The translations under genes were made by a program, and so were the position numbers. From Candidatus Bipolaricaulota bacterium (GTDB lineage Bacteria > Bipolaricaulota > Bipolaricaulia > Bipolaricaulales > Bipolaricaulaceae): a stretch of 38,980 nt of DNA. Positions 4,725 to 38,408 of the stretch are shown one piece after another. A model generated the notes under the pieces. It was not told where the DNA came from, did no database searches, and was given only the letters and a program-made list of their open reading frames with translations. Where the stretch lies: contig CAKZSO010000059.1 of assembly GCA_937921255.1 (NCBI GenBank), forward strand, positions 1-38,980, given 5' to 3'. Within the stretch, counting starts at the first letter, position 1. Each line of letters begins with the position of its first letter.

Positions 4725-5729
4725 ATCTCCGCCTCGCGGCGGACCGACCTCCCGCGGTGGTACCTCCCGTGGCTCAGGGCCGCGTTCCACGCGGGGAGGG
4801 CAACGGTCGGGCTCCCCTTTGGGGGGCAGAGGATCGTGTCCCTCGACCCCGACCAGGTCCACACCCTCGTCTTGTGGTCGAAGGACTTCGCGCGCCTCCT
4901 CGCGGATCGCCAGCTCAAGGAGGTCCTCCGGCGGTACGACCAGGTGGTCGCTCACCTCACGGTGACCGGCCTCGGGGGAACGTGGGTCGAGCCCGGTGTC
5001 CCCCGGTGGGACAACGCGATCGCGCAGCTCCCGGACCTCATCGCTCTGTGCGGTGGCCCAGAGCGGGTCGTCCTCCGGTTCGACCCCATCGTGTTCTGGA
5101 ACGAGGGACGCCGCCTCCAGAGCAACCTCCCCTGGGCCGAGCCCGTGTTCCGCGCCGCACGCCCATCAGGGGTTCGGAACGTCCGGACGAGCTTTGCAAC
5201 CCTGTACGGGAAGGTCCTTCGCCGCGGGGTGATCTGGTACGATCCGACCCCGGAGGAGAAGCGGAGCGTCGCGGCCCAGATCGCGGATCTGGCGCACGCC
5301 ACCGGGCTTGACCTCGGCGCGTGCGCGGACCCCGCGTTCGAAGAGGCGGGAACCCCGCGCGTCCCGTGCATCGACGGCCAGCGGCTGACCGAGCTCCACC
5401 CGGCAAGGGAGCGGGCCCCTCTCCGCCGGGACCGGGGCCAGCGGCCGGAGTGCCGGTGCACGGAGAGCGTGGACATCGGCTCGTACCGAATGCCCTGCCC
5501 CGCAGGGTGCCTGTACTGCTACGCCAACCCGCGCAGAAGCGGGAGTGGGGCTCAACCCCGAGACGCTACAGGGAACCCAACCCGGCAAGCGCGCCGAGGA
5601 GGGAGAACGCCGCCCCGAGGATCCAGAGCCGAACCACAACCTTCGGCTCGGGCCAGTTCGGGCTCCGAATCCGGTGGGGCCACGGGACCCCTCCGGCGTC
5701 GAGGTGGTGGTGGAACGGGGCCATCTTGA
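4725..5729 (+). CDS. DUF1848-family protein (start codon non-canonical; 3' end uncertain)
   Basis: The frame matches the DUF1848 family from its very first residues (ISASRRTDLPRWY, where family members normally begin M-I-x-SASRRTDIP) through VLWSKDF, LTVTGLGG, VVLRFDPIVFW and PCIDG. It ends with a C-terminal cysteine cluster (RPECRCTESVDIGSY then CPAGCLYCYANP) that carries a CxxxCxxC pattern like that of radical-SAM enzymes, presumably binding an Fe-S cluster. The function of the family is not known. No ATG, GTG or TTG lies between the tRNA end and this point; the listed start is an ATC (4725). The only upstream candidate, a GTG at 4680, is inside the tRNA. No Shine-Dalgarno site is seen. Past CYANP (about 5535) the frame runs on to 5729 with low-complexity sequence antisense to mraY, so the natural end is probably earlier, possibly through a frameshift. 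Confidence 0.62.
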   Translation: MSASRRTDLPRWYLPWLRAAFHAGRATVGLPFGGQRIVSLDPDQVHTLVLWSKDFARLLADRQLKEVLRRYDQVVAHLTVTGLGGTWVEPGVPRWDNAIAQLPDLIALCGGPERVVLRFDPIVFWNEGRRLQSNLPWAEPVFRAARPSGVRNVRTSFATLYGKVLRRGVIWYDPTPEEKRSVAAQIADLAHATGLDLGACADPAFEEAGTPRVPCIDGQRLTELHPARERAPLRRDRGQRPECRCTESVDIGSYRMPCPAGCLYCYANPRRSGSGAQPRDATGNPTRQARRGGRTPPRGSRAEPQPSARASSGSESGGATGPLRRRGGGGTGPS

Positions 5730-6576
5730 GAAGGCGCACTCCCGTGAGCTTGTAGCTCGCCACCTGGAGGATCACGGACAGGGCCGTGACGACGAACACC
5801 CCGCCCACCAGGGGGAGGAGGAACACCGTCCCCGAGCCGAACGCGAGCCCGAACAAGAACCCTCCACAGCCCATCGAGCCCACGTTCCCCATGAACACGC
5901 GCGCGGGAAACGCGTTCGACCACAGGAACCCCGCCCCCGCGCCCACCGCGAGGAGGCCGATCCCCCCAAGCTCCCCCACGCTGCCCACCGAGACGAGCCC
6001 GAGCACGGCAAGGGTCCAGGTCCCGGCGGCGAGGCCGTCGAGCCCGTCGGCGAGGTTCACCCCATTCACCGTCCCCATGAACCCGACGACGACAAGCGGA
6101 ACCCACGCCCAGACGGGCAGCGCGGCCAACGGTAGCCGACCGCCGGAGAACGGGACAACGAGCTCGAGCTCGCCCAGGGTCGGGACAAGGAGGCAGAGGA
6201 CTGCCCCCCCAAACGCCTGGGAGAGGAGCGTCTGGTGGGGTACGAACCCAACCGCGGACCCTCCGCGCTGGGACCGAAGGTCATCGAGAAGCCCGATCAG
6301 GCCCCCGAGGGCCGTGGACAGGAGCACGAACCCACCCCCTGCCGACGGGCCCGGGCCGAACGCCCACAGAAGACCTGTCCCAGCGAGAATCAGGCCGAGG
6401 GGGACGACCCCGCCCATCGTCGGCGTACCAGCCTTCCCCCGGTGCTCGGAGGGCCCCTCGGGCCGGATCCGTTGCCCAGCGCGAATCCGGCGGGCAAACC
6501 GTGGGCTCCCCCACGCCGCAAGGGGAAGCGCCGCCAGGGCGAGCGCAAGCCCCAGGGTCAGCCCTTCCACCGCCAC
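5566..6576 (-). CDS. mraY: MraY phospho-N-acetylmuramoyl-pentapeptide-transferase
   Basis: 336 residues, polytopic membrane protein that makes lipid I from UDP-MurNAc-pentapeptide and undecaprenyl phosphate. The diagnostic GTPTMGG is at 50-56, the Asp pair at 98-99 (LLDDL), NLADGLDGLA at 174-183, and HHH at 289-291 in KMAPFHHH. Two oddities: the FMGD motif reads FMGN (N231; codon AAC), replacing an Asp that in E. coli and Aquifex MraY is essential and metal-binding; and about ten extra residues separate HHH from the usual WPEP segment. The GTG at 6576 has GGAGG 4 nt upstream and overlaps the previous gene's stop by 19 nt, so translation is coupled. It lies outside any mur/fts cluster. MraY is favoured over WecA-type enzymes because of GTPTMGG. 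Confidence 0.9.
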   Translation of the reverse strand: MAVEGLTLGLALALAALPLAAWGSPRFARRIRAGQRIRPEGPSEHRGKAGTPTMGGVVPLGLILAGTGLLWAFGPGPSAGGGFVLLSTALGGLIGLLDDLRSQRGGSAVGFVPHQTLLSQAFGGAVLCLLVPTLGELELVVPFSGGRLPLAALPVWAWVPLVVVGFMGTVNGVNLADGLDGLAAGTWTLAVLGLVSVGSVGELGGIGLLAVGAGAGFLWSNAFPARVFMGNVGSMGCGGFLFGLAFGSGTVFLLPLVGGVFVVTALSVILQVASYKLTGVRLLKMAPFHHHLDAGGVPWPHRIRSPNWPEPKVVVRLWILGAAFSLLGALAGLGSL

Positions 6577-7880
6577 TCCCCCTCCGCCGCGAGGAGGTCC
6601 CTCCGCACCTCCGCAGCCGACCCTCCACCGAGGACGTCCCGCACCGCCCGGAACAGATTGTGGGCTGAGGTGAGGACGAGCCCGTGGTCTCGGCACCCGC
6701 GGCGGACGGACTCCGCCCACTGGGGGCCCCGCCGGCGGGGATCGAGCCGCGGGTCGGCGAGGCAGACGAGCAAACCCCGGACATCGGCGTTCTCCTCCGA
6801 CCGCAGCCGGTCGAGGTCGAGGAGGAGGGCGCGATGCTCCTCCGGCCCCACCGGGCCAAACGGGGACAGGGCCGCCCGCACAAGGTAGTCCCCGTCGGAG
6901 GAAGAGGCGATCGCCGTCGCCGGAGCGTCACCGCGGGGAGACACGGTGAACCCCAGCCGCTCGAGCGCGGACCACGTCGCCTGGGCCAGGCCGAGGTGCC
7001 CCCGCGGGGAGAGGAGGGCCCGCAGGAGGTCGTAGCCCCGGCGCGCCTCCCCAAGCTCCTGTTCCCTCCGGCGGAGCTTCTCCCGGTCGCGGGCGAGGGC
7101 CTCCTCCGCCCGGCGGAGCTCGTCCTCCCCCGGGAGCTCGAACCCAGAAATCCAATCGGGAAGCTCCACGGGGAGCGGTTCCCCGCAGAGGGCGGCCACC
7201 ACCGGAAGCAGCCGCTCCCCGACCTCGGACGGAGAGGCGCCCGGAAGCGAGGGGAGGAACAGGATCCGTCCCGCCCCCACCGGGAGGTCCCACGCCACCG
7301 CGTCACCGACGCGGTTGGTGGCCAGGACCTTCCCAAACGAGCTCAGCGGGGCCCCCAGGGTCGCCACGAGCACCGCCTCGTACCCGAGCGGAGCGAACGC
7401 TTCCAGGTACGGGCCCGCGGGGTGGGCCGCCTCAATTGTGGTCAGGTCGTGGCCCCGCCGGGGGACGAACCGCAGCCCCTGGGGAAGGCCGAGGTGGTGG
7501 GGGCCAGAGACGAGGGACGTTCGGGGGAGAAACGCGTACCGGTCCAGGCGGTGGGGGGGCTGGCCCGCGATCTCGACCCCCTCCCCCGGCGGCCGCACCC
7601 GGACCACGAGCACGCCCCCGCCGCGGAGGAGGAGGTCCTCGACCTCCGCCCGGCGCGCGGCGACGAGGTTCCCGAGGGCCCGGGACAGGCCGAGGTCCCG
7701 CCCAGGGTGAAGGCGCCACACCCCGTCCGGCTCAAGGGCGGCGTGGGGAAGCCAAAGAGACGGCAGCGGCTCGGGGTCGACAAGCACCGCGTCGTAGCTC
7801 GCGAGGGAGTCCGCGGAGGCGAACTCCGCCCGGATCACGCCCGGCCCCTCGACCTCCCACCCCAGCGCGAGAACCCGCAT
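6558..7880 (-). CDS. Hypothetical protein with coiled coil and degenerate restriction-nuclease-like C-terminus
   Basis: 440 residues, no signal peptide. The N-terminal half (about 1-250) has an alpha/beta pattern reminiscent of glutamine-amidotransferase-like folds (ASYDAVLVDPEPL, LLRGGGVLVVRVR). A charged helical stretch (about 268-300, RRREQELGEAR) follows. The C-terminal part (about 310-440) reads like the Mrr/PD-(D/E)xK layout: ALERLGFTV, SDGDYLVRA, DVRGLLVCLADPRLDP, VLTSAHNLFRAVRDVLGG. However, the position where an active nuclease would have E-x-K (LVEVK) reads LVRAA, so catalysis is probably lost. No family could be named with certainty. It is the first gene of a pair with mraY (19-nt overlap). 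It has no Shine-Dalgarno site, and a promoter -10 lies 7 nt from the ATG. Confidence 0.72.
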   Translation of the reverse strand: MRVLALGWEVEGPGVIRAEFASADSLASYDAVLVDPEPLPSLWLPHAALEPDGVWRLHPGRDLGLSRALGNLVAARRAEVEDLLLRGGGVLVVRVRPPGEGVEIAGQPPHRLDRYAFLPRTSLVSGPHHLGLPQGLRFVPRRGHDLTTIEAAHPAGPYLEAFAPLGYEAVLVATLGAPLSSFGKVLATNRVGDAVAWDLPVGAGRILFLPSLPGASPSEVGERLLPVVAALCGEPLPVELPDWISGFELPGEDELRRAEEALARDREKLRRREQELGEARRGYDLLRALLSPRGHLGLAQATWSALERLGFTVSPRGDAPATAIASSSDGDYLVRAALSPFGPVGPEEHRALLLDLDRLRSEENADVRGLLVCLADPRLDPRRRGPQWAESVRRGCRDHGLVLTSAHNLFRAVRDVLGGGSAAEVRRDLLAAEGEWRWKG

Positions 7881-34483: not shown

Positions 34484-35839
34484 TCACCCCGGCCGGCGGA
34501 GGAACGTCGGAACGTCGAGGTCCTCGTCCTTGGGCCGCCGCGGGATCACCGGACGAACCCGCTCCTTCTTCTCCTCCTCGACCGGAACGGCGCGAAACTC
34601 GGCCGCGATGACCGTGACCTCCACCGAACCGCTGTTCTGGGGTTGGATCACGGCTCCAAACGTGATGTCCGCCTCCGCAGCCGCAGATTTGCGGATCGAC
34701 TCCGCAACCTGAGTGACCTCGGTCAGGGTGAGGTCCTCGCCCCCGGTGACGTTGAGGAGGACGCGCCGCGCCCCCTTGATCGTCCCCCCCTCGAGGAGGG
34801 GGTTGGTGACCGCGGCCTTGGCCGCGCGGAGGGCGCGGCTCTCCCCGCGGGCCTCGCCCATCCCCATCATCGCCGTCCCCGCCCCGCGCAGAACGGAGGC
34901 CACGTCGGCGAAGTCGAGGTTCACGAGGCCCGGGACGGTGATCAGGTCCGAGATCCCCCGCACCCCACGCAGGAGCACGTCGTCGGCGAGCTCGAACGCC
35001 TCGGTCACCGAGTCGCTGCGGGCGATCTCCAGCAGCCGATCGTTCCGGACCACGATCAGGACGTCGGTCTTCTCCCCCAGGCGGGCTAGGCCGGCCTGGG
35101 CCCGTTGGAGCTTGAGATCGCCTTCGAACCCAAACGGAAGCGTGACCACGCCCACCGTGAGCGCCCCGTGCGCGCGCGCCAGTTGGGCGACGACGGGCGC
35201 CGCGCCTGTTCCTGTGCCCTTCCCCAGCCCACAGGTCAGGAACACGAGGTGGGCGTCGCCAATGAGGTCTTCGATCTCCGCCGCGGCCTCCTCGGCAGCC
35301 CGGCGCGCCTTCTCGGCGTCGCCCCCCGTGCTCCGGCCGTGGGTCACCCGCTCGCCGAGGAGAAGGCTCCCTCCGTTGCGGAAGGCCGACAGCACCTGGC
35401 GGTCCGTGTCGAGGGCCGCCAGTCGGACCCCCGACAGCTTCGCATCGCGCATCCGCGCAAGCGCGTTGATCCCTCCCCCCCCGATCCCGATGACGAGGAT
35501 CCGGGCGGGGGTGACAACGTTGCGGACGGGGGCCGTCTTCTCGGGGGTGGGCGCCTCCGGCGCTTCGCCGAACGGAAGCGGCCGCTCCTCTCCCGGATCG
35601 ACCAGCCGGACCTCGAGGTCCCCGAACACCGCGCGCACCGCCTCGGCGAGCTTGCCGATCTTGCGCCCGACGTACTCCTTTTTGAAAGCGGACTCGATCT
35701 CGATCAGGAGGACGCCGCGTCCGCGGCTGACCTTGTCCGCCGACACGGGGAGGCAGGCCCGGAGCATCTGGTCCTGGACTTCTCCGAGGAGCTTCCGCCA
35801 CTTCTGGGCAAGCTCCTCCTTCCCCCGTTCTCGGTCCAT
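34484..35839 (-). CDS. ftsZ: FtsZ with an N-terminal DnaA/DnaX-like extra domain
   Basis: 451 residues. Residues 111-415 are a full FtsZ: IGIGGGGINALARM, GLGKGTGTGAAPVV (206-212 reads GKGTGTG instead of GGGTGTG), and the T7 loop NLDFAD (307-312) needed for GTP hydrolysis. The C-terminal peptide DVPTFLRR (442-449) is the conserved tail that binds FtsA/ZipA-like partners. In front of this, residues 1-80 are an extra domain not found in ordinary FtsZ: a helix QKWRKLLGEVQDQML, a strand pair GVLLIEIESAFKKEYV, a helix, and DLEVRLV, then a Pro/Glu-rich linker (81-110). This layout resembles domain I of DnaA and the KH-like domain of DnaX (inference). The ATG at 35839 has no clear ribosome site and lies 37 nt after the HAD gene. 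It sits outside any dcw cluster. Confidence 0.9.
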   Translation of the reverse strand: MDRERGKEELAQKWRKLLGEVQDQMLRACLPVSADKVSRGRGVLLIEIESAFKKEYVGRKIGKLAEAVRAVFGDLEVRLVDPGEERPLPFGEAPEAPTPEKTAPVRNVVTPARILVIGIGGGGINALARMRDAKLSGVRLAALDTDRQVLSAFRNGGSLLLGERVTHGRSTGGDAEKARRAAEEAAAEIEDLIGDAHLVFLTCGLGKGTGTGAAPVVAQLARAHGALTVGVVTLPFGFEGDLKLQRAQAGLARLGEKTDVLIVVRNDRLLEIARSDSVTEAFELADDVLLRGVRGISDLITVPGLVNLDFADVASVLRGAGTAMMGMGEARGESRALRAAKAAVTNPLLEGGTIKGARRVLLNVTGGEDLTLTEVTQVAESIRKSAAAEADITFGAVIQPQNSGSVEVTVIAAEFRAVPVEEEKKERVRPVIPRRPKDEDLDVPTFLRRPG

Positions 35840-35876
35840 GGCGTCGTGGCCATTGTGGCGATCCCCCTCGCGGCCG

Positions 35877-36524
35877 TCAACTCGGGACCCGCACCAGCTC
35901 GGGGATTGCGTGGAAGTGGTGGACAACCGACCGTGCTGCTGCTGCCACTTGGGGCGCCTTCGGAGCGTAGGCGATCCCGAGCCCCACGGCCTCGAACACC
36001 GGGATGTCGTTCAGGTGGTCGCCCACGAACGCAATCTCCCCCAGCGCCAGGCCCAACCGGCGGGCTTCTCGTTCCACCACCGCCCGCTTGTCGCCCAGGC
36101 CCACCCGGACCACCGCCTCCCCCGTGAACACGCCGTCGGCGATCCGCAGCTCGTTCGCCACCGCAAACGAGAGAGCGAGCTCCACCCGCACCCGGTCCGC
36201 GACGAGGGCCACGCCCGAGGAGACGATCCCCAGGATGTACCCCGAGCGCCTGAGCTCGCCAACCGCCTCGGGGGCTCCCGGGGCGTACGGAGGGGGAAAG
36301 AGGGACGGCAAGACGCGGTCCACGGACACCCCCCGAAGCAGGGCCGCGTTCTCCCGCACCCAGTCCGGGTAGAGGTGGGGTTTCCCCAGGTACCGCTGGA
36401 GGATCCGCTCCCACTCCGCGCCCAACCCCGCCGCGGCCCCGATCGCGCCCCAGCTTGACTCGAACGGGACCCCCGCGTAGCGGACGAGGGTCCCGTCGAG
36501 GTCGAAGAACACCGCCCGGATCAA
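35877..36524 (-). CDS. HAD-family phosphatase (phosphoserine-phosphatase-like)
   Basis: 215 residues. Motif I DLDGT near the N-terminus (VFFDLDGTLVRY), motif II Ser in GIVSSGVAL, motif III Lys in LGDKRAVV, motif IV GDHLND. The segment ANELRIADGVFTGEAVVR and the C-terminal GLGIAYAPKAPQVAAAA are like those of SerB-type phosphatases, so a small phosphomonoester such as phosphoserine is the likely substrate; other HAD-IB substrates remain possible. The start is a TTG overlapping the previous stop (TTGA); a GTG at 36512 would remove four residues and still keep motif I. Third from last in the cluster with ftsZ. Confidence 0.85.
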   Translation of the reverse strand: MIRAVFFDLDGTLVRYAGVPFESSWGAIGAAAGLGAEWERILQRYLGKPHLYPDWVRENAALLRGVSVDRVLPSLFPPPYAPGAPEAVGELRRSGYILGIVSSGVALVADRVRVELALSFAVANELRIADGVFTGEAVVRVGLGDKRAVVEREARRLGLALGEIAFVGDHLNDIPVFEAVGLGIAYAPKAPQVAAAARSVVHHFHAIPELVRVPS

Positions 36525-38386
36525 GGGTTCGGGATCAGCTTGATCTCCCGCGCCAGCCCGAGGTCGGAGAAGCGCCCCGCGGGGACCTCGAGGGCCATCG
36601 TGAACGGATCCGCGGCCCCGTAGAGGTCCTTCGAGTCCGCCTGCATCGTGTTTCGCCCGAGGAACGCGCCGTCCGCGGCGAAGAACACGATGTCCAACGG
36701 GAGGAACACGTTCCTCATGTGGAACTGGCTCACGGTGGGGTTCTGGAAGACGAAGAGTATCGCGAGATCCTGGGCCATCTCCACCGGGATCCCCTGGAAC
36801 CCGATGAACCGCTCGTGGGGAAGGGCGGCCACCCGCGCTGTGACCGTCGCCCCCAGCCCGGTCTTGTCCTCCAGGGTCACGACCTGTTCCCGCATCGTCC
36901 CCACGACCCCGGGAAGGCCGGGGTAGAACGCGCGGTCCATGAGGGGATAGGCGTCCTGGCCCCCTCCCCCAAAAAGGACGGGAAGGTCGCCGATCCCATC
37001 TCCATCCGCATCGGGCCCCTGGTAGTTCGAGTACCAGTTTCCCCGCCCGTGGGGTGCCCAGAGGTTCTTGCCGAGGTCCCGCGCGATTCGGCCGCACTCC
37101 CAGACGAGGTTCTCGTAGATCTGGGTCTCGACCGTCTCGGTCCCGAAGTACAGGCCGTCCGTACACCGGTAGAGGACGTTGTGCCGCACGACGTTTCCCG
37201 TCGGGGTAGCCTGGGAGTAAGCCTCCTCGAAGATGATCCCGATGTTCGCCCGGGCGATGAGGTTTCGCTCGTAGACCCCGTGGGAAGCCAACGACGAGAT
37301 CCCGTAGCCAACCTGAACCATGGTCGAGTACGCCACCCGGGGGTGGGTCGCCCCGCCCTCGATGTACACCGCCACGTCCGATTCGGTGAACGCGCACCGC
37401 TCGACCGTCACACCGTACGACGTTTCGATCTCGACCCCGTGGCGGTTCTGGTAGAACAGCCCCTGCTGAATCAACGTGTCCCGCGCTCCACCCGTGACAA
37501 GGACGCCAAGGGGGTTGGCGGCAAACGCGTTGTTCCTGGCGGTGACCCCATCGGAGGCGTTCACGAGGAGGCCGACCTGGTTCGCGTACAGCCCCACGTT
37601 CTCCACCCACACCCGGTCTGAGAGCCAGACCGAGATCCCCGCTCCGGTGCAGTTGGCGATCCGCGGCGAGTCCGTGACCATTGTGCCCGGGGAGGAGAAG
37701 ATGAAGACACCGTTCCCCGTCGCGCGCGAGACGTCCGCGTTCTCGATCCGCACACCCTCGGACAGGACAACGTTGATCCCGTCCCCTCGGTCGATCTTCG
37801 CCCCGCGGAGGGTGACGTTCCGGCACGCCGCGAGCGTGATGTGCCCGGCGGCGATCCCCTCCAGCACCTGCCCAGAAAGCCCGTAGTAGTAGCGGATCTC
37901 CTGGCCGTTCACCGTGTTCGTCGGCTCGACCGCGTGGCGGAAATGGGCTTTCTCGAGACCCAGAACCTGGAACCCCAATCCTCCCCGTACGCCGAGGAAG
38001 TTGTCGCGCACCGTGACGTCGCGGGAGGTTGCGATGCGAATCCCGTTGATGCTATCGCTGATTGTGCAGTCCTCGACCACTCCGCCCACGACGTTGGTGA
38101 GGGCGATCGCCGCTCCCCGTGGATCCATGGCCCCGCTCACCCGGCAGCCGCGGACAACAAACGAAGCCGTGGTGTCCTCGATCCGGATCCCGTAAAGGTC
38201 CCCGGAGGAAACCCGGATCTCCCACCCGACGATCAGGTAGGGGTCGCCGGGCGTGCCCGCTCCCCCGATCACCCCGTTTGCCGCGGTGAAGTCGGCATCC
38301 GAGAGGATGGCGATCGGCCCCCGTTCAGCGGCGGCGCCCACCATGAGAGCCACCCCACTCAGCAAAACGGCCATTGCCCTGTGCAT
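36521..38386 (-). CDS. Secreted right-handed beta-helix (NosD-like) protein with C-terminal DUF192
   Basis: 621 residues. Signal peptide (1-20). Residues about 25-440 contain repeating parallel beta-helix coils of the NosD/pectate-lyase type: a GTPGDPYLIVGW opening, then many turns such as GIRIEDTTASFVVRGC, GGVVEDCTISDSINGIRIATSRDVTVRDN and GLLVNASDGVTARNN. A short Asp-rich DADGDGIGD repeat follows. The last about 123 residues are a DUF192 domain (RVAALPHERFIGFQGIP, FVFQNPTVSQFHMRNVFLPLDIVFF, MALEVPAGRFSDLG). DUF192 normally occurs alone as a small secreted protein. The start at 38386 has GGAGG 4 nt upstream (an ATG at 38389 would be only 1 nt from it). First gene of the cluster, overlapping the HAD gene by TTGA. 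Confidence 0.85.
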   Translation of the reverse strand: MHRAMAVLLSGVALMVGAAAERGPIAILSDADFTAANGVIGGAGTPGDPYLIVGWEIRVSSGDLYGIRIEDTTASFVVRGCRVSGAMDPRGAAIALTNVVGGVVEDCTISDSINGIRIATSRDVTVRDNFLGVRGGLGFQVLGLEKAHFRHAVEPTNTVNGQEIRYYYGLSGQVLEGIAAGHITLAACRNVTLRGAKIDRGDGINVVLSEGVRIENADVSRATGNGVFIFSSPGTMVTDSPRIANCTGAGISVWLSDRVWVENVGLYANQVGLLVNASDGVTARNNAFAANPLGVLVTGGARDTLIQQGLFYQNRHGVEIETSYGVTVERCAFTESDVAVYIEGGATHPRVAYSTMVQVGYGISSLASHGVYERNLIARANIGIIFEEAYSQATPTGNVVRHNVLYRCTDGLYFGTETVETQIYENLVWECGRIARDLGKNLWAPHGRGNWYSNYQGPDADGDGIGDLPVLFGGGGQDAYPLMDRAFYPGLPGVVGTMREQVVTLEDKTGLGATVTARVAALPHERFIGFQGIPVEMAQDLAILFVFQNPTVSQFHMRNVFLPLDIVFFAADGAFLGRNTMQADSKDLYGAADPFTMALEVPAGRFSDLGLAREIKLIPNP

Positions 38387-38408
38387 CATGCCTCCTTAGA
38401 CTTAGGCA

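Follow-up and report, generated by a model that had tools for sequence, protein, structure and literature searches.

It has long been asked how bacteria coordinate their division with replication of the chromosome, and the known links between the two processes are made by separate adaptors or inhibitors. The N-terminus of bona fide bacterial FtsZ is usually thought to be almost invariant. In the ZapT-ZauP-ZapA system, the replication terminus is physically tied to the Z-ring through separate adaptor proteins (PMC7858052). N-terminal extensions are known from the FtsZ-like, Tubulin_2-bearing paralogues of the FtsZ superfamily (Makarova and Koonin), one example being a protein kinase in Planctomycetes; these proteins are divergent and lack the FtsZ_C domain (PMC9871819). 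Among replication proteins, one fold is common to DnaA domain I, DnaX domain V and the N-terminal domain of DciA, and the first two have been described as binders of DnaB (PMC9912922). Here we describe a locus of Bipolaricaulota in which a domain related to these lies within a true FtsZ itself, so that FtsZ may tie the chromosome to the Z-ring as the Zap proteins do, through a part of its own chain rather than through separate adaptors.

A true FtsZ with an added N-terminal domain

The window, by which we mean the whole stretch of 38,980 nucleotides that was analysed, belongs to a 1.29 Mb genome in 66 contigs (86% complete). Its FtsZ gene, ftsZ2, has the following features:

34484..35839, minus strand: ftsZ2 coding sequence, 451 amino acids in a single open frame (ATG 35839-35837, stop 34484-34486)
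35852..35880, minus strand: sigma-70-type promoter, TTGACG - 17 nt - CACAAT, ending 12 nt before the ATG
35600..35839, minus strand: N-terminal domain (N-domain) of DnaA-I/DnaX-V/DciA type (KH-like), residues 1-80
35513..35587, minus strand: Pro/Glu-rich linker, predicted to be disordered, residues 85-109
35021..35503, minus strand: FtsZ GTPase domain (Pfam Tubulin, PF00091), residues 113-273, with K207 in the G-box GLGKGTG
Residues 307-312 of FtsZ2, just N-terminal of FtsZ_C: T7 loop NLDFAD
34595..34879, minus strand: FtsZ_C domain (PF12327), residues 321-415
34493..34522, minus strand: C-terminal conserved peptide DLDVPTFLRR, residues 440-449, resembling the FtsA-binding tail of ordinary FtsZ

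The window protein is a true FtsZ with an added, folded N-domain, in which the GTPase, T7-loop and tail features are kept. An earlier reading of the DNA, made from the sequence only and without naming the strand, had described 80 extra residues and a Pro/Glu-rich linker in front of a complete FtsZ in one uninterrupted frame, and this architecture is borne out by the open reading frame, the predicted disorder of the linker, and a match of residues 109-425 to the NCBIfam equivalog ftsZ (TIGR00065; E 1.1e-100, 337 bits against a cut-off of 295). The Pfam GTPase and FtsZ_C domains are both matched, and the core of the predicted model overlays FtsZ crystal structures with a TM-score of ~0.97 on the target. 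The T7 loop with its catalytic Asp residues (NxDxxD) reads NLDFAD in 41/41 FtsZ2 rows shown, and P444, R448 and R449 of the C-terminal peptide are invariant in the alignment. FtsZ2 shares with TIGR00065 proteins the GTPase domain, FtsZ_C, the T7 loop and the FtsA-type peptide, and differs from them by its N-domain, its location outside the dcw cluster, its status as a second copy and, in the window's genus, a lysine in place of the G-box glycine; unlike the Tubulin_2 proteins, it is a true FtsZ. At the start of the linker there is an LP(L/F)xE motif (residues 88-92; window 35564-35578, minus strand), whose P89 is invariant in 48 sequences and which may be an extension of the N-domain or a short binding motif.

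A mis-called start could in principle have produced the extra domain, with translation truly beginning around residue 105-110 and the sequence ahead of it being noncoding. We regard this as extremely improbable. A GTG or ATG codon does occur at positions 91-110 in some relatives, and we found no further support; the window protein itself has no ATG, GTG or TTG codon at residues 90-115. A promoter of the form TTGAC-(17-19)-[CT]ANAAT stands directly before the annotated ATG at 38/54 ftsZ2 loci, against 0.015 expected from shuffles, and is also visible in an alignment of the window with its relatives, so that the transcript is predicted to be nearly leaderless, starting a few nucleotides before the ATG. 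In three congeners (L005, L008 and L009), the frame is closed by a stop one codon upstream of the ATG. The N-domain evolves under purifying selection, with dN/dS between relatives of 0.13-0.44; the FtsZ core is tighter (0.06-0.26) and the linker looser, most of its values falling at 0.24-0.6 and two comparisons coming out close to 1 or higher. Eight N-domain columns (W14, D23, L26, C29, L30, P31, Y56 and K60) are invariant in 28 homologues, and the domain is conserved across three families, f1, f2 and f7. The conserved promoter, the recurrence of the domain at 54 loci and in 68/100 genomes, and the purifying selection together show that the N-terminus is real, and a mis-called start is ruled out. 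A chimera of the contig or assembly is likewise ruled out, since the fusion recurs in 68 genomes. The sequence-only reading had named a start near residue 105-110, or 80 unconserved residues without a fold match, as grounds for giving up the fusion; what we found is an upstream start and a conserved domain with the fold matches described below.

Affinities of the N-domain

Sequence comparison and modelling place the N-domain in the KH-like group, together with DciA, DnaA domain I and DnaX domain V. Among 28 homologues, Pfam DnaX_C is matched by 12 (best 1e-4), DciA by nine, the STICHEL DnaA_N-like family by six and DnaA_N by six (best E 0.006), and two NCBIfam DnaX models are matched by 17/28 and 12/28. 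In the window protein, DnaX_C (PF20964) reaches 16.6 bits, below the curated cut-off of 26.2, and DnaA_N (PF11638) gives no Pfam match. Because the scores seen in Pfam and NCBIfam fall below the curated cut-offs, the N-domain is to be read as related to each family without belonging to it. Searches of PDB sequences with the N-domain, as a single sequence or as a profile, returned chance matches only. Profile-profile comparison with hhalign against the phylum's own proteins gave P=4.6e-6 for DnaA domain I and P=4.8e-6 for the DnaX C-terminus. Control segments taken from FtsZ, DnaX and DnaA outside the matching domains gave P>0.08, and segments half-overlapping the matching regions gave P of 0.001-0.003, as expected.

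The AlphaFold model of the N-domain (pLDDT 78 alone, ~90 within the full protein) contains helices at residues 3-20, 24-29, 51-59 and 61-72 and strands at 37-40, 43-47 and 76-80. This corresponds to the helix-helix-strand-strand-helix-strand topology of the KH-like group, with the third helix split in two, and reproduces the order of helix, strand pair, helix and strand that had been read from the sequence. In Foldseek searches, DnaA domain I (4tps) ranked first (TM 0.67-0.72, prob 1.00) and DciA (8a3v) third (prob 0.99), and the tau C-terminus (5fku) and the DnaA N-domains 2jmp and 2e0g were also listed; for a model of this length the E-values are weak (0.04-0.5), yet the matches agree with one another. 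The proposed likeness to DnaA domain I and DnaX, for which the sequence-only reading had suggested profile-profile comparison and structure prediction, is thus supported by sequence families, controlled profile comparison and predicted structure.

The N-domain is distinct from each of these relatives. DnaA domain I (PF11638) is its best structural match, and the positions of E. coli DnaA Trp6 and Phe46 are filled by W14 and F52; however, the N-domain is joined to FtsZ and not to an AAA+ initiator, and has its own signature, LRACLP and FKKxYxxRKxxKL. DnaX (tau) domain V provides the best Pfam and NCBIfam matches, but the N-domain sits at the N-terminus of FtsZ. The DciA N-terminal domain (PF05258) is a structural match and a weak Pfam match, but most of these genomes, including that of the window, have a separate DciA gene. 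We also observed an in-frame TGA inside the DnaX match of dnaX in three genomes (G031, G035 and G037; in the C-terminal part in G031 and G035), which is either an assembly error or a source of a short and a long product, as in other bacteria.

Distribution and descent of FtsZ2

The window genome has two FtsZ genes, whose products are 51% identical. The gene for FtsZ1 follows ftsA in a row of genes that also holds murG, ftsW, murD, murC, murB and ftsQ (read from translated frames), and the N-terminus of FtsZ1 is ordinary and short (MMGESPARIMVVG). The window gene is a second, paralogous and clade-specific FtsZ, and its position outside the dcw cluster, remarked on from the sequence, is confirmed; the dcw cluster of the same genome holds FtsZ1. 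On the contig of ftsZ2 there is also an MraY-like Glycos_transf_4 gene (window 5566-6720, minus strand), apart from the dcw cluster and 28 kb away from ftsZ2.

To survey the fusion, a strict degenerate DNA motif of the N-domain was scanned over 84,980 species. The scan returned 54 loci, most of them titled Bipolaricaulota or Acetothermia and some bearing no phylum in their title. An FtsZ core motif follows in frame at 49 of them; among the remaining five, four hit the sequence end and one (L131) is a full-length frame of 462 codons without the exact core motif. The motif is exact and its spacing fixed, so that genus g12 (+2 residues) and further divergent forms would escape it; absence outside the phylum holds for that motif only. 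Five loci titled Caldisericota, Atribacteria, Neomarinimicrobiota or Thermotoga (L116, L146, L155, L158 and L161) encode an FtsZ2 identical or close to that of Bipolaricaulota, and are probably mis-titled assemblies.

Within the phylum, a profile search detected the N-domain in 68/100 genomes, as a single copy in each (counts by hand): in 36/40 genomes of f1, 30/33 of f2 and 2/2 of f7, and in 0/25 genomes of f3-f6, f8 and f9. The genomes compared are mostly metagenome-assembled, and at least two of those in which the domain was not matched (G017 and G027) contain FtsZ2-like C-terminal pieces truncated by contig ends. We found no free-standing copies of the N-domain in the phylum; each match lies in a frame of FtsZ2 size or is cut by a contig end, and the domain precedes FtsZ at every locus whose frame was readable. 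The survey of relatives proposed in the sequence-only reading has therefore recovered the same N-terminus, in dozens of genera, and in these searches the fusion is confined to three families of Bipolaricaulota, of which f1 and f2 are well sampled and f7 is small. In f5, the sole FtsZ (L204, L206 and L208) has a different N-terminal extension of ~50 residues, e.g. MNKKNKSVGQDPLDGVMEDFYKS..., without a DnaA-I-like domain. We found no paper on FtsZ of Bipolaricaulota in the open-access literature searched.

In a tree of 56 FtsZ cores, every FtsZ2 falls in one clade (support 100/100) with a long stem, and the FtsZ1 side is supported at 90/65. The split of f1 from f2 and f7 appears alike within FtsZ1 and within FtsZ2, which fits vertical descent since a common ancestor. 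The duplication occurred either before the class, or in the ancestor shared by f1, f2 and f7, followed by fast change.

The sequence-only reading had counted a G-to-K change in GKGTGTG among the oddities of the fusion. The change is real: at K207 (window 35219-35221, minus strand), a glycine of the tubulin/FtsZ signature is replaced by lysine, giving GKGTG. It is not, however, part of the fusion. K207 is present in 12/12 rows of the window's genus, which make up 12/41 FtsZ2 rows overall, and in no row of another genus; FtsZ2 of other genera retains the glycine of the G-box GGGTG(S/T)G. The substitution is a later, genus-level change separate from the fusion, and it may perhaps alter nucleotide handling. 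The window's genus shows further changes beside K207, and FtsZ1 of the window genome is canonical there.

Candidate roles of the N-domain

Replication or DNA-bound factors, or a self-association module, had been proposed from the sequence to act on the Z-ring through the N-domain, and the comparisons above leave both proposals plausible. We think that binding of a replication protein is the most likely role, followed by self-association, and then equally by binding of nucleic acid or of another partner. In the model that we put forward, FtsZ2 would polymerise, probably with or beside FtsZ1, and would be tethered by FtsA through its C-terminal tail. The N-domain, on its flexible linker, would serve as a docking arm, for the DnaB helicase first, or else for DnaA or DnaX, and the assembly or position of the Z-ring would respond to the replisome or origin. 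As a whole, we hold this model to be a real possibility, a little short of an even call. Its boldest form, in which docking on DnaB, DnaA or DnaX lets one polymer-forming protein couple replication to Z-ring assembly without separate adaptors or inhibitors, we advance more tentatively.

In E. coli DnaA domain I, Trp6 serves dimerisation and Phe46 serves DnaB binding (PMC5448010). The aligned residues of FtsZ2 are W14, which is invariant, and F52 (95% F), and E. coli DnaA Glu21 has no clear counterpart; the conservation of W14 and F52 may reflect no more than the needs of the fold. Folds of the domain-I type also serve self-association and nucleic-acid binding, and this counts against the docking explanation. 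DnaA domain I dimerises head to head, and this role ranks with its best conserved ones (PMC5448010); a dimerising arm on an FtsZ polymer would naturally cross-link. With W14 invariant at the position of the dimer residue, the N-domain might pair FtsZ2 molecules of neighbouring protofilaments and bundle the Z-ring without any replication partner. We consider this unlikely, if the strongest of the alternatives: much of the best conserved sequence lies beyond helix 1, in a basic run and the CLP motif, and relatives of the DnaX-V and DciA type act by hetero-interactions.

The basic run itself (K53, R59, K60 and K63, on the last helices of the N-domain) bears on another role of KH-like folds, in which a basic patch would bind DNA or RNA and attach FtsZ2 to the nucleoid for site selection or nucleoid occlusion. 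The net charge is +2 to +5 in 10/11 sampled N-domains, and the structural relative DciA is reported to bind ssDNA (PMC12547741); its relationship with DNA is also the subject of PMC9865707. On the other hand, the classical GXXG loop of KH domains is absent from the alignment, and one f2 member has a net charge of -1. We rate nucleic-acid binding as improbable.

The neighbours of ftsZ2 encode a HAD hydrolase, a NosD-like protein, a PKD protein and an M1 peptidase, and differ in f2. No replication gene adjoins ftsZ2, so that an operon with one is ruled out and the neighbourhood offers no replication partner for the N-domain. Two genes upstream of ftsZ2, we noticed a NosD/beta-helix protein with a fused C-terminal DUF192 (window 36521-38389, minus strand). 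The lack of a replication gene nearby would suit docking on a non-replication partner, such as a divisome or envelope protein of the clade, with the likeness to DnaA and DnaX reflecting shared small-fold ancestry only, and DnaA-I-type domains do bind varied proteins across lineages (DiaA, HobA and SirA; PMC5448010). However, the most-matched families (DnaX_C, DciA, DnaA_N and STICHEL DnaA_N-like) are replication or clamp-loader-like, and we give this explanation as little weight as nucleic-acid binding.

Docking on a replication protein, our preferred reading, would give the Z-ring a replication-linked control that could serve a phylum in which MinC and SepF were not detected. Neither MinC_C (PF03775) nor SepF (PF04472) was matched in any of 100 phylum genomes, with controls matched, and the Z-ring must therefore be placed and tethered in some other way. 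As the same absence is seen in families without FtsZ2, it does not explain FtsZ2.

FtsZ2 demonstrates that a bona fide FtsZ tolerates and conserves an added folded N-domain, and that two specialised FtsZ proteins are maintained within one bacterial phylum. A true FtsZ is here fused to a type of domain that elsewhere recruits replication proteins, and the fusion suggests a direct physical link of chromosome copying to cell division. If the N-domain does bind a replication protein, the coupling would be built into FtsZ itself, and it could be put to the test through expression of a single small domain.
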